This document shows positions 3,796 through 31,862 of a stretch of DNA of 57,560 nucleotides, piece after piece; within the stretch, counting starts at the first letter, position 1, and every line of letters starts with the position of its first letter. The DNA is from an uncultured Acidimicrobiales bacterium (GTDB taxonomy: Bacteria > Actinomycetota > Acidimicrobiia > Acidimicrobiales > SZUA-35), in contig CALLGK010000103.1 of assembly GCA_938009905.1 (NCBI GenBank), positions 1-57,560 on the forward strand. Reading direction: 5' to 3'. Under the pieces are notes generated by a model, which worked only from the letters and a program-made list of their open reading frames with translations, ran no database searches and had not been told where the DNA came from. The translations under genes and the position numbers were made by a program.

Positions 3796-4947
3796 CTAGA
3801 AGCCGAGCGAGCGGCCGATGATTTCTTTCATGATCTCGTTGGTGCCGCCGTAGATCTTCTGCACGCGAGCGTCTCGCCAGGCCCGAGCGATCGGGTACTC
3901 CTCCATATAGCCGTACCCCCCGTGGAGCTGCAGGCACTGGTCGGCCACTCGATTCTCGAGCTCGGTCGTCCACCACTTCGCTTCTGCTGCGTCCTCAGCA
4001 GTCAGCTCCCCATCGAGGTAGGCCTGGATTTGGCGGTCCATGAAGACCCAGGCGATGTCGAGCTCGGTCTTCATCTCGGCCAGCCAGAACTTGGAGTTCT
4101 GGAACGACCCGATGGGCTGGCCAAACGCTTCTCGTTCCTTGGCGTAGTCGATCGTCCAGTCGAAGGCCCGCTGAGCGTGGGCAACAGCACTGAGTGACAG
4201 TGACAGCCGCTCGCGAGGGAGGTTGCCAACCAGGTTGAAGAAGCCCTGGCCTTCGCCGCCAAGCAGGTTCTCAGCCGGTACCCGCACGTCTTCGAAGATG
4301 AGCTCTGCGGTGTCTTGAGCGTGCAGGCCGATCTTCTCGAGGTTGCGACCTCGGCTGAAGCCCTCCATGCCTTCCTCGACAACGAGCAGGCTCATGCCTC
4401 GGTGGGCTTGGGTTGGATCGGTCTTGGCTGCCACGATCACGAGCGACGAGTTGATGCCATTGGTGATGAACGTCTTTGAGCCGTTGAGCACGTACGTGTC
4501 GCCATCCTTGATGGCCGTGGTGCGCACACCGGCGAGGTCCGAGCCAGTGCCAGGCTCGGTCATGGCAATGGCGGTCATGGCATCGCCCGAGCAAATGCCT
4601 GGCAACCAGCGAGCCTTCTGCTCGTCGTTGGCTACCTCGTTGAAGTAGGGGAGGCAGATGTCGTTGTGCAGCGTGATGCACATGCCGCTGCCGAACACGC
4701 CGGCCGCCTGCACCTCTTCGTTGATGATGCAGTTGAAGCGGAAGTCGTCCACGCCGCCGCCACCGAACTCTTCGGCGACTTCCATGCCGAGAAACCCAGC
4801 ATCGCCAGCGGCCTTGAACATCGCGACGTCAACCTTGCCCGCCGTCTCCCACTCGTCTGCGTGGGGCACAACTTCCTTCTGCAGAAAAGTGCGGACACTC
4901 TCGCGAAACATCTCGTGTTCGTCGCCGTAGATCGTTCGTCGAAGCAT
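3796..4947 (-). CDS. Acyl-CoA dehydrogenase, long-chain/isovaleryl subgroup
   Basis: This 383-residue flavoprotein would oxidise a fatty acyl-CoA to the trans-2-enoyl-CoA and reduce ETF. It shows AMTEPGTGSDLAGVRTTA (FAD/substrate loop), SKTFITNG, and the C-terminal FAD motif QLHGGYGYMEEYPI. The position that holds the catalytic Glu in MCAD/GCDH reads IYGGTNEIM, with Gly in its place. A glutamate instead appears at about E246 in NLPRERLSLS, the helix-G site used by long-chain and isovaleryl-CoA dehydrogenases. The enzyme therefore belongs to that subgroup and is probably active. The first residues, MLRRTIYGDEHEMFRESVRTF, are the normal N-terminus of the family. Confidence 0.85.
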   Translation of the reverse strand: MLRRTIYGDEHEMFRESVRTFLQKEVVPHADEWETAGKVDVAMFKAAGDAGFLGMEVAEEFGGGGVDDFRFNCIINEEVQAAGVFGSGMCITLHNDICLPYFNEVANDEQKARWLPGICSGDAMTAIAMTEPGTGSDLAGVRTTAIKDGDTYVLNGSKTFITNGINSSLVIVAAKTDPTQAHRGMSLLVVEEGMEGFSRGRNLEKIGLHAQDTAELIFEDVRVPAENLLGGEGQGFFNLVGNLPRERLSLSLSAVAHAQRAFDWTIDYAKEREAFGQPIGSFQNSKFWLAEMKTELDIAWVFMDRQIQAYLDGELTAEDAAEAKWWTTELENRVADQCLQLHGGYGYMEEYPIARAWRDARVQKIYGGTNEIMKEIIGRSLGF

Positions 4948-4954
4948 GATGCGA

Positions 4955-4960
4955 ACGCTA
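4955..4960 (-). promoter_or_regulatory. Leaderless -10 element of the acyl-CoA dehydrogenase gene
   Basis: Read on the minus strand, TAGCGT is followed by 7 nt and then the ATG whose first base is 4947. Confidence 0.45.
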
Positions 4961-5033
4961 CATCAGCGTGCCCCCAGTAGGCCTCTTCGAAGGCCTACGA
5001 TCCAAGGCGCCGTGCCTGCCGAAGCCACCTCAG

Positions 5034-5681
5034 ATGACAGACGCTGATCCTCGCACCGCCGTCGTCATCAGCGGCGGGGCTGCCTTGACGCCAACAGAGA
5101 TTGCCGCCGTTCCAACCGGGGCGTTCATTGTCGCTGCCGACTCAGGGATCGACCGCGCCGCCGAGGCCGGCATTGTCGTGCACACCGCCGTTGGCGACTT
5201 CGATTCTGTGAGCGCCACCGGCTACGTGCGAGCCGAAGAAGATGGTGTCGAACTGGTGCGGCACGACGCATCAAAAGATGAGACCGATCTTGAACTGGCG
5301 CTGCTTCGAGCCGCGGCGCCCAACCCCGACCGTCTCATCGTGATCGGCCTGGACGGCGGGCGCTTCGATCATCAGCTGTCTTCGACGCTCATGCTCGCCG
5401 ACGAACGGCTGGCGTCTGTCGACGTCGAGGCCTATGTGGGGGCCACGAAGATCACCGTGATTCGCTCGAAGCGGGCACTCACGGGCCGCGTCGGCGATCT
5501 GGTTTCGCTGATCTCTATTGGTGGCCCTGCCGTTGGTGTGACCACCCACGGTCTCGAGTATCCGCTGAACAACGAGACGCTTGCCCCTTCATCGCCTCGG
5601 GGTGTGTCGAACGTCTTCACCTCGGCGGTCGCCGCGGTCAGCCTCACGAGCGGTGTGCTCTTTGGGGTGCAGCCGTCGTGA
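5034..5681 (+). CDS. thiN: Thiamine pyrophosphokinase (thiamine diphosphokinase)
   Basis: The 215-residue protein has all three hallmarks of the family: VGDFDSVS (about residues 53-60, metal/ATP site), SKDETDLELAL (about 80-90), and GLDGGRFDHQLS (about 107-118). These transfer pyrophosphate from ATP to thiamine to make the cofactor ThDP. The C-terminal half (TKITVIRSKRALTGRVGDLVSLISIG) is the thiamine-binding beta domain. I start at ATG 5034 because the ThiN-like AVVISGG strand follows directly; an upstream GTG at 4968 would add 22 unconserved residues. The stop overlaps the start of the LCP gene (GTGA), so the two are probably co-translated. Confidence 0.85.
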   Translation: MTDADPRTAVVISGGAALTPTEIAAVPTGAFIVAADSGIDRAAEAGIVVHTAVGDFDSVSATGYVRAEEDGVELVRHDASKDETDLELALLRAAAPNPDRLIVIGLDGGRFDHQLSSTLMLADERLASVDVEAYVGATKITVIRSKRALTGRVGDLVSLISIGGPAVGVTTHGLEYPLNNETLAPSSPRGVSNVFTSAVAAVSLTSGVLFGVQPS

Positions 5682-29753: not shown

Positions 29754-29782
29754 CTACCTGGTGTGAGCCACGCGACAGGTAG
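29754..29782. promoter_or_regulatory. Inverted repeat in the tetR promoter (possible operator)
   Basis: CTACCTG (29754-29760) and CAGGTAG (29776-29782) are perfect 7-bp arms with centres 22 bp apart, two helical turns. The right arm overlaps the TAGCCT -10 box (29780-29785) of the TetR gene, as expected for autorepression. Confidence 0.45.
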
Positions 29783-29785
29783 CCT
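29780..29785 (+). promoter_or_regulatory. Leaderless -10 element of the tetR-type gene
   Basis: TAGCCT, then GGGAGCG, then ATG 29793. Confidence 0.45.
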
Positions 29786-29792
29786 GGGAGCG

Positions 29793-30359
29793 ATGGAAAT
29801 CGAGAGCCGCAGCGGTCGACCCCGGTCCTTCGACCCCGACGACATGCTCGGTCGGTTGATTGCGGTGTTCTGGTCAAAGGGCGCAAGCAAAGCAACCACG
29901 AGGGTGCTGGAGGCCGAGCTCGGGCTCGGCCAGTCCAGCCTCTACAACGCCTTTGGTTCCAAGGCCGGTCTGCTGGATGCTGCCATTGTCAAGTACGAAG
30001 AGCTGCTCGACGCCGCAGTGCTGTCGCACCTTGAACGCCCGGGTCGAGCTGCGCTCAGTGACTTTGTCGCGGCTCTGCTCGAGTGGATCGATCACGACGA
30101 GCATCGTGGCTGCCTCTTGTTCAACTTGGCCGCGGAAGACCCGGCGTACCGAGTCCATATGGATCGCTATCGGCGACGCCTACGAGTTGCGTTGTCGGCA
30201 TCGCTGGCCACCTTTCTGGCTGCCGATGAGGTCGCTGTCCGGGCTGAGATGCTCATGGCCGCGGTGTTCGGGCTGACTGCGTCGGCTCGAACAGGTGCCA
30301 GCTCGGTTGAGCTGGCCACGATAGCTTCAGCCATCGATTCGCAAATCTTCGATTGGTAG
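29793..30359 (+). CDS. TetR/AcrR family transcriptional regulator
   Basis: A 188-residue repressor. RPRSFDPDDMLGRLIAVFWSKGASKATTRVLEAELGLGQSSLYNAFGSKAGLLDAAIVKY is the N-terminal HTH with the typical SLYNAFGSK recognition helix. The remaining residues form the ligand-binding helices (CLLFNLAAEDP resembles the YvdT/AcrR-like C-domain that senses small electrophiles). The leaderless start ATG 29793 is clear. It converges with the thioredoxin-selenoprotein operon (5-bp gap), whose strong operator at 31281-31306 has no assigned regulator; this gene is the nearest candidate. Confidence 0.88.
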   Translation: MEIESRSGRPRSFDPDDMLGRLIAVFWSKGASKATTRVLEAELGLGQSSLYNAFGSKAGLLDAAIVKYEELLDAAVLSHLERPGRAALSDFVAALLEWIDHDEHRGCLLFNLAAEDPAYRVHMDRYRRRLRVALSASLATFLAADEVAVRAEMLMAAVFGLTASARTGASSVELATIASAIDSQIFDW

Positions 30360-30364
30360 CCCGC

Positions 30365-30688
30365 TCAGGACTCGGTGAACATCGCCTGTTCGACCGTGCC
30401 CATCGGAACCGCGCCAGTGATGCGATGAACCTCATCGCCAGCGCGTACGAAGACCAGCGTGGGCGTTGTGGTGACCTGATAGCGGTCGACGAGATCGGGA
30501 TGTTCCTCGACGTGGACCGCAACCAGGCGCCAATCCTCGGCGTGCGACTCTGCCAAACGCTCGAGGTGCGGTCGCATCGTGCGGCACGGCTGACACCACG
30601 TTCCCCAGAAGTCGATGATGACGCCGCGCTCCTCTGCCAGCAGCGTGCGGTTCAGTTCGGCGGCTCCGACCTCGTCGACCGTCGTCAT
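30365..30688 (-). CDS. Thioredoxin-like protein with WCQPC active site
   Basis: A 107-residue thioredoxin fold: VIIDFWGTWCQPCRTMRP (C32, C35) and the cis-proline segment QVTTTPTLVFVRAG. The middle residues are QP in place of the usual GP, which can shift the redox potential. Its ATG (30686-30688) shares one base with the stop of the selenoprotein gene (TGATG), so translation is coupled. The simplest role is to recycle the cysteine/selenocysteine pair of that partner, an inference from position. A second thioredoxin-like gene lies at 41076. Confidence 0.85.
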   Translation of the reverse strand: MTTVDEVGAAELNRTLLAEERGVIIDFWGTWCQPCRTMRPHLERLAESHAEDWRLVAVHVEEHPDLVDRYQVTTTPTLVFVRAGDEVHRITGAVPMGTVEQAMFTES

Positions 30689-31269
30689 CAGGCGATCTCC
30701 TCCCGGCGGTACTGCATGTCGGCTTCATACGCCGATTCGTCCGAAGCGTCCATGTTCATTGTGATGTTGAACTTGTTTCCCCAGTTGAAGATGCCGCAGG
30801 CGAAGACCATTTCGACGATCTCATCTTCGCTGAAGTGCGCCTTGAGCTTGAGGAAGAACTCATCGGTGACTGTGTGAGGATCGAGCGCGATGCGCTCGGC
30901 GAGAGAAATGCCAAGGGCTTCTCGATCGCTCAGGTGCTCGCCAGTCATGGGCTGATGCTCCATGCAGGCGGTTTCTCGAGGGGCTACATCGTCGCGCACG
31001 GCGACGCTACGTACGGTGTTTCAATAGGCGCAGTCATTGATCTGGCCGGTCTTTAGCCGCATCAACTCGTGCAGATGTGGTTCGACGTTGCCGTTGGCGA
31101 AGAACGATACGAAGACCGGGACGATTGTCTTGAGGTTCTCCGGGTTGCGGGCGATGACGCCGAACATGTTGGCGTCGGCCCACCAACCATCGGTGGCTTG
31201 AGCGAGAAGCTCGTTGACCTCCGCGTCCGGACTTTCTCCTGGCTTGATTGGCGTGATGCGAGTTGCCAT
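30688..31269 (-). CDS. Carboxymuconolactone decarboxylase/AhpD-like protein, probable selenoprotein (in-frame TGA = Sec83)
   Basis: Read through one TGA (31021-31023), the frame gives a 193-residue protein of the CMD/AhpD peroxidase-like family. The N-terminal part ends HLHELMRLKTGQINDCAY; the next residue should be the second Cys of CxxC, but the codon is TGA. The part after it, NTVRSVAVRDDVAPRE... HFSEDEIVEMVFACGIFNWGNKFNITM, is intact and normal for the family. No other stop or frameshift occurs. Cys80-x-x-Sec83 would be a peroxidatic/reductant pair. ATG 31269 follows AAGGGGGG with 4 nt. A hairpin lies 20 nt after the TGA. Alternatives are a nonsense mutation or a sequencing error. Confidence 0.75.
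30990..31006 (-). promoter_or_regulatory. SECIS-like hairpin 20 nt after the in-frame TGA
   Basis: In the mRNA, CGTCGC (31006-31001) and GCGACG (30995-30990) form a perfect 6-bp stem around a 5-nt loop, CGUGC, with three further weak pairs outside. A G lies within the first two loop bases and 20 nt separate TGA from the loop. Both agree with the loose bacterial SECIS rules as I recall them. Confidence 0.55.
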
Positions 31270-31280
31270 GGGACCCCCTT

Positions 31281-31306
31281 GGTTTTGAAGCACTCGCTTC
31301 AAAACC
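31281..31306. promoter_or_regulatory. Operator upstream of the selenoprotein operon
   Basis: GGTTTTGAAGC and GCTTCAAAACC are perfect 11-bp arms around ACTC. The right arm overlaps a minus-strand TAGGTT -10 box (31303-31308), placing the transcription start inside the palindrome. An outer inverted repeat (CCCCCTTGG 31274-31282; CCAAGGGGG from 31319) brackets it. Repression in the absence of an inducer is likely. Confidence 0.65.
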
Positions 31307-31397: not shown

Positions 31398-31862
31398 TCA
31401 GCCCAGGCAGAACTCGTTGCCTTCTGGGTCGGCGAAGATGACCCAGGTGTGGGCACCCTGGGCGCCTTCGCCGATGCGGGTGGCGCCAAGGCTGATGAGA
31501 CGCTGCTCTTCGGCGGTCCGGTCTTCTGGTGAGGTGTCGCGAGCCAACTGCACATCGAGGTGGCAGCGGTTCTTCGCCTCCTTGCCCTCTGGTACTCGCT
31601 GGAAGAGAAGGCGTGGTCGAGATCCCTGCACATCGTTGCAAGCGACGGCGTCGGCGAAGAAGAGCACACCGTCGATCTCGACCACGTCGTCGCTGGTGAC
31701 CATGCCGTCGTCCAGTAACTTCTGGATGAACTCGGGATTGGCCTCGACTTCATAGCCGATCGCACCAGCCCAGAACCGGGCAGCTCGGTGGGGGTCGTCG
31801 CAGTCGAAGACGACCTGCATGTTTCCGGAAAAGGCCGGGGGAGTGGACGCATTGTCGCTCAT
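31398..31862 (-). CDS. VOC (glyoxalase-like) family protein
   Basis: A 154-residue protein with one vicinal-oxygen-chelate module pair: MQVVFDCDDPHRAARFWAGAIGYEVE at the start and RLISLGATRIGEGAQGAHTWVIFADPEGNEFCL at the end. This is the glyoxalase-like subgroup common in actinobacteria. Metal ligands include His in NRCHLDVQL and Glu in GNEFCL. Its ATG overlaps the stop of the upstream cofE by ATGA, so it is co-translated with F420 biosynthesis; the physical substrate is unknown. Confidence 0.78.
   Translation of the reverse strand: MSDNASTPPAFSGNMQVVFDCDDPHRAARFWAGAIGYEVEANPEFIQKLLDDGMVTSDDVVEIDGVLFFADAVACNDVQGSRPRLLFQRVPEGKEAKNRCHLDVQLARDTSPEDRTAEEQRLISLGATRIGEGAQGAHTWVIFADPEGNEFCLG

Follow-up and report, generated by a model that had tools for sequence, protein, structure and literature searches.

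The window analysed here, a stretch of 57,560 nucleotides, is one contig, C103, of a genome of 4.38 Mb that comprises 343 contigs and has a rated completeness of 85%. It contains an AhpD-like gene that is interrupted by an in-frame TGA, an adjoining thioredoxin gene, a TetR-type regulator gene and an inverted repeat (Table 1). Translation of the minus strand from 31269 to 30688 gives MATRITPIK...GQINDCAY-stop-NTVRS...YRREEIA-stop, and the TGA takes the second position of the CxxC motif of the family (CAY-U, in GQINDCAY-U-NTVRS). A sequence-only reading had described this TGA as the single break in a 193-residue frame, and both the position and the codon were right. The strand was not given in that reading; the frame lies on the minus strand, and the plus strand of 30688-31269 reads as unrelated sequence. 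It had also expected the gene to be annotated as two broken fragments. A mechanical ORF finder indeed splits the frame into two pieces (31302-31021 and 30999-30688), so ordinary annotation would yield two fragments. The thioredoxin partner, the TetR-type regulator with its palindrome and the SECIS-type hairpin described below are additions to that reading.

Table 1. Features of the locus, with the SelD gene found elsewhere in the same genome
Feature	Position	Strand	Details
TetR-type regulator gene, convergent with the thioredoxin gene	29763..30359	+	PF00440 over its cut-off
Thioredoxin gene (WCQPC), proposed reductant	30365..30688	-	PF00085, 75.1 bits
AhpD-like (CMD superfamily) predicted selenoprotein gene	30688..31269	-	193 aa; ATG 31269-31267; stop TGA 30690-30688
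SECIS-type hairpin within the coding sequence	30990..31006	-	6-bp stem, 5-nt loop CGUGC, 20 nt after UGA
In-frame TGA at codon 83, predicted selenocysteine (C80-A-Y-U83)	31021..31023	-	TGA in 9/11 orthologues, TGC in 2/11
Probable ribosome-binding site of the selenoprotein gene, purine-rich AAGGGGG	31274..31280	-	Direct reading of the sequence
Perfect 11-bp inverted repeat, 4-nt spacer, proposed TetR operator	31281..31306	.	GGTTTTGAAGC/GCTTCAAAACC; from the sequence
Glyoxalase-like gene (PF18029)	31398-31862	-	Upstream of the proposed operator
SelD gene with in-frame TGA in GAG-U-ACK	L071, about 4379-5302 (G000:C135)	-	Active-site TGA

Predicted selenocysteine decoding at codon 83

Ten more distinct orthologues came from searches of relatives, of the class and of the phylum and from a single scan of public genome contigs; two loci that turned up in both collections enter this count only once. 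In eight of the ten, which are from different assemblies and 67-86% identical, codon 83 is TGA and the frame is free of further internal stops. The remaining two, the more distant genes of Pseudonocardia sulfidoxydans (L055) and a Rhodococcus MAG (L056), have TGC, which is the cysteine that the earlier reading had expected at this position. The UGA aligns with UGA or Cys in homologues and has conserved coding sequence on both sides. The fact that nine assemblies share the TGA argues against a base-calling error. Both halves of the gene had been described as intact, and this was borne out, as the nearest relatives keep the TGA together with an intact, conserved second half. The dN/dS ratio after the TGA is about 0.05-0.30 for the computable pairs (Nei-Gojobori method), comparable with that of the upstream part, and judged by this ratio the second half is under purifying selection. 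The gene is sparse: it was found in 3 of 395 genomes of the class, with the window's own counted in, and a close copy is absent from the four genus-mates. In these collections the orthologue group is found mainly in Acidimicrobiales-type genomes. The two nearest relatives with a name are labelled uncultured Acidimicrobiales, and the host of the window probably belongs to the same order. One TGA-bearing orthologue (L053), which has both TetR and thioredoxin genes, comes from a MAG labelled Acidobacteria. This suggests that the module may have moved horizontally between phyla, unless the MAG was mislabelled or wrongly binned.

The genome encodes the complete machinery of a Sec-decoding organism. 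SelA and SelB lie side by side on contig C186, SelD is on contig C135 and a tRNA-Sec with anticodon TCA is on contig C188, all over curated cut-offs. In Sec-containing SelD, selenocysteine is expected in the GAG-U-ACK site, and the SelD gene of this genome has its in-frame TGA exactly there. This SelD probably contains selenocysteine itself, so that a second, unrelated gene points to Sec decoding in the genome. A tRNA-Sec over the cut-off is also present in nine of ten genomes tested within the same family. Every genome with the TGA form has a tRNA-Sec that passes the cut-off, and each also has a match to SelA, though in G035 the SelA match is truncated and below the cut-off. In the Rhodococcus genome, which has the Cys form, neither a SelA match nor a tRNA-Sec over the cut-off was found; the Pseudonocardia genome has both, yet it has Cys at codon 83.

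A hairpin follows the UGA within the coding sequence. A bacterial SECIS is expected to have an upper stem of 4-16 bp and a loop of 3-9 nt located 16-37 nt after the UGA, with a G in the first two loop positions and a minimum free energy of at most -7.5 kcal/mol (PMC13188914). The hairpin found here has a stem of 6 bp, a loop of 5 nt at a distance of 20 nt and a G at loop position 2 followed by U, and the energies range from -11.3 to -15.8 kcal/mol for 35-nt stretches. These energies are only weakly better than those of dinucleotide shuffles, and for this reason covariation and a synonymous-codon shuffle were used. The loop reads CGUG(C/A) among the nine TGA genes, standard pairs fill every one of their 54 pair cells, and at two of the six stem positions both partners have changed. 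Watson-Crick pairing reaches 53 of 54, against a largest value of 45 among 20,000 synonymous-codon shuffles; as the nine sequences are related, neither the covariation counts nor this total represent independent events. The hairpin is absent from both Cys orthologues. An Rfam scan of the window found no family, which speaks neither for nor against a SECIS element.

Together, these results indicate that the mid-gene TGA almost certainly codes for selenocysteine and is not a defect, and we are highly confident that selenocysteine would actually be inserted at codon 83. The presence of SelA, SelB, SelD and tRNA-Sec, and second halves that are not degraded in the relatives, uphold the selenoprotein originally proposed. 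The gene could instead be decayed, with the TGA arising from a nonsense mutation or from an error in sequencing and translation no longer reaching the second half. Beyond the stop itself and the splitting of the gene by standard ORF calling, nothing favours this explanation. It conflicts with the complete Sec machinery, and it is contradicted by the conservation of the TGA in nine assemblies, in a frame that is otherwise open, and by the dN/dS of 0.05-0.30 after it; we rejected it as extremely improbable. Alternatively, the UGA could be read as Trp or Cys through a changed code or a suppressor tRNA. As two orthologues have Cys at codon 83, a Cys-inserting suppressor would be chemically tolerable. 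However, other genes of the genome terminate in TGA, as does the selenoprotein gene itself, the Sec machinery is complete, the TGA of the SelD gene falls at the Sec position, and such a reading would not account for the hairpin that follows the UGA. On these grounds reading as another residue was rejected as well, and we give it hardly any chance.

A scan of the window for TGA-interrupted frames with a Cys near the TGA returned 19 candidates, including the CAYU gene. The other 18 were judged by eye, and no known redox motif in a real gene was seen among them.

The AhpD-like protein and its relatives

With Pfam at its default threshold the selenoprotein was assigned to no family, so membership was assessed by profile and structure. 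A profile search matched the solved AhpD-like structures 2ijc (E 6e-13), 2oyo, 6k40 and 6ohi. PF02627 (CMD) is weakly matched by all 11 orthologues, and the window protein scores 17.2 bits against a gathering score of 23; for the peroxidase-related subfamily TIGR01926 it scores 64 bits against a curated cut-off of 81.8. A first AlphaFold model, made from 11 close sequences, was poor (pLDDT 65.7). The model made from a 35-sequence alignment reached a pLDDT of 88, and its Foldseek matches are the AhpD-like proteins Bmp8, Mlr4105, D. radiodurans AhpD and PA0269. Profile and model agree on an all-helical AhpD fold with a CxxC or CxxU motif. Because the CMD and TIGR01926 scores stay below their cut-offs, the protein is assigned to the AhpD-like superfamily by profile and predicted fold, and it has no family model of its own in the two libraries concerned. 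The CMD/AhpD-like identity given by the sequence-only reading thus holds for profile and fold matches and not for the curated Pfam and TIGR01926 thresholds. When 35 AhpD-like proteins are compared, Cys80 and position 83 are the only columns without variation. We compared the surrounding residues with the M. tuberculosis AhpD-type peroxidase, in which, at what we take to be the reference spacing, a relay Glu and His lie around the CxxC. Glu68, 12 residues before C80, is invariant among the orthologues, and the residue 4 after position 83 is an invariant Arg87 and not His.

The sequence-only reading mentioned that AhpD-like selenoproteins with U in this motif have been reported in marine bacteria, and they are indeed a well-known class (PMC1088965, PMC2398784, PMC13188914). 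CxxU forms were described in 2005 with 27 sequences (PMC1088965), AhpD-like 1 was among the commonest families in ocean samples with 299 sequences (PMC2398784), and a review of 2026 names several forms (PMC13188914). With these proteins (COG2128/YciW, TIGR01926; 'AhpD-like 1') the window protein shares the CxxU motif with Sec second, the AhpD-type fold, the existence of Sec/Cys homologue pairs and a SECIS after the UGA (PMC1088965, PMC2398784, PMC13188914). It differs in its score below the TIGR01926 cut-off and in the overlap of its gene with a thioredoxin gene. The GroundWater_YciW (seleno)protein family NF053654 is also AhpD-like, with Sec and Cys members according to the family name. It is matched by all 11 orthologues, but at 54.5 bits against a cut-off of 310 the window protein is not a member. 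The AhpD_rel_CFYUT (seleno)protein family NF041238, AhpD-related and with CxxU, gives a weak, partial match (17.2 bits against 175), and a CFYU-T motif is found in another gene of the same genome. The fold of the confident model is matched best by the debrominase Bmp8 (6ohi/6ohj; TMq 0.74, 20% identity), which has a specialised substrate and Cys instead of Sec. The Cys enzymes D. radiodurans AhpD (6k40) and P. aeruginosa PA0269 (2ijc) have the same fold and CxxC position, with 22-26% identity to the window protein. The enzyme class is therefore known, and for this orthologue group we found no NCBIfam model or description of its own; its distinctive feature is the thioredoxin linkage. In the open-licence PubMed Central literature we found no report of selenoproteins jointly with Acidimicrobiia.

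The operon and its proposed function

The selenoprotein gene ends within the first bases of the thioredoxin gene, and the two share 4 bp (ATGA). In 10 of the 11 orthologues, both Cys forms included, the gene is followed by a thioredoxin that has a CxPC motif; around the G035 orthologue none was found within the stretch examined. Near both Cys orthologues there is also a thioredoxin reductase gene, at a distance of about 0.3 kb in Pseudonocardia and about 2.2 kb in Rhodococcus. Based on the adjoining thioredoxin and on these reductase genes near the Cys forms, we propose that the operon thioredoxin is probably the reductant of the selenoprotein. Beyond the thioredoxin and TetR genes no conserved gene order is apparent. 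The glyoxalase-like gene of the window has no homologue that we could find near the other orthologues.

A TetR homologue is present near the orthologue in four other genomes. The gene is convergent and downstream in four genomes and upstream in L053, and it is absent near four TGA orthologues. The inverted repeat of the window sits immediately ahead of the probable ribosome-binding site. In the three other genomes whose TetR gene is convergent, the region upstream of the selenoprotein gene contains a related palindrome that agrees at 16-17 of 22 bases; for orthologues lacking a convergent TetR gene, L053 included, no match exceeds 12 of 22. The palindrome thus tracks the convergent TetR gene. 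This makes it likely that the TetR-type protein represses the operon via the upstream palindrome, which would be its operator.

As a whole, the comparative evidence makes it very likely that the locus encodes a Sec-containing AhpD-like oxidoreductase. Its most plausible function is that of a thioredoxin-reduced peroxidase, in an operon that is probably under TetR control. Codon 83 would be decoded by SelB and Sec-tRNA(UCA), directed by the hairpin immediately downstream, and the product would have a C80-x-x-U83 redox pair in an AhpD fold, a role assigned to C80 and U83 by analogy with AhpD-like enzymes. This pair may reduce peroxide or a similar oxidant and pass through a C80-U83 selenenylsulfide intermediate, which the thioredoxin of the same operon would then reduce again. 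The adjacent TetR-type protein would probably keep the operon repressed through the palindrome.

Peroxide itself is only somewhat favoured as the substrate. A genuine selenoprotein with another substrate is possible though rather unlikely; it might be a Bmp8-like selenol-dependent reductive dehalogenase, a scavenger of hypohalous acids or a thioredoxin-linked disulfide reductase. Bmp8 is the best fold match of the confident model (6ohj, TMq 0.74), the title of the 6ohj entry gives C82 as the mutated residue, and RclX, an AhpD-like protein of P. aeruginosa, has a protective role against HOCl and HOSCN (PMC7950407). However, D. radiodurans AhpD is nearly equal to Bmp8 in fold score (6k40, TMq 0.73), and as fold and motif are common to AhpD-like proteins, the Bmp8 match does not discriminate the substrate. 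More speculatively, and with a low probability, the locus could be a self-contained selenium-dependent detoxification operon, made up of an AhpD-fold selenoenzyme, its own thioredoxin and a TetR sensor, directed at a non-peroxide target in a lineage whose AhpD-like selenoproteins have expanded to at least seven in a single genome. Such a target might, at similarly long odds, be an organohalide or a reactive halogen species.

With this gene and its relatives, the AhpD-like selenoproteins gain an orthologue group that is well supported. The operon thioredoxin offers a testable electron donor for a selenoprotein class for which we found little biochemistry. Sec and Cys versions occur naturally, both with this thioredoxin partner retained, and with such matched pairs one could measure what is gained by Sec over Cys.

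The genome of the window has at least seven AhpD-like ORFs with a TGA exactly at the second motif position, with the motifs CAYU (in the window), CGLU, CVHU, CPTU, CVFU, CHYU and CFYU. Judged from these ORFs, such an expansion of AhpD-like selenoproteins is unusual for one genome, and it suggests that a single genome of this Acidimicrobiales-type family can carry many AhpD-like selenoprotein genes, which standard ORF calling fragments. The six further ORFs are located on C275 (L095), C322 (L096), C80 (L097), C106 (L098), C109 (L099) and C301 (L104), and each is followed by a foldable hairpin.
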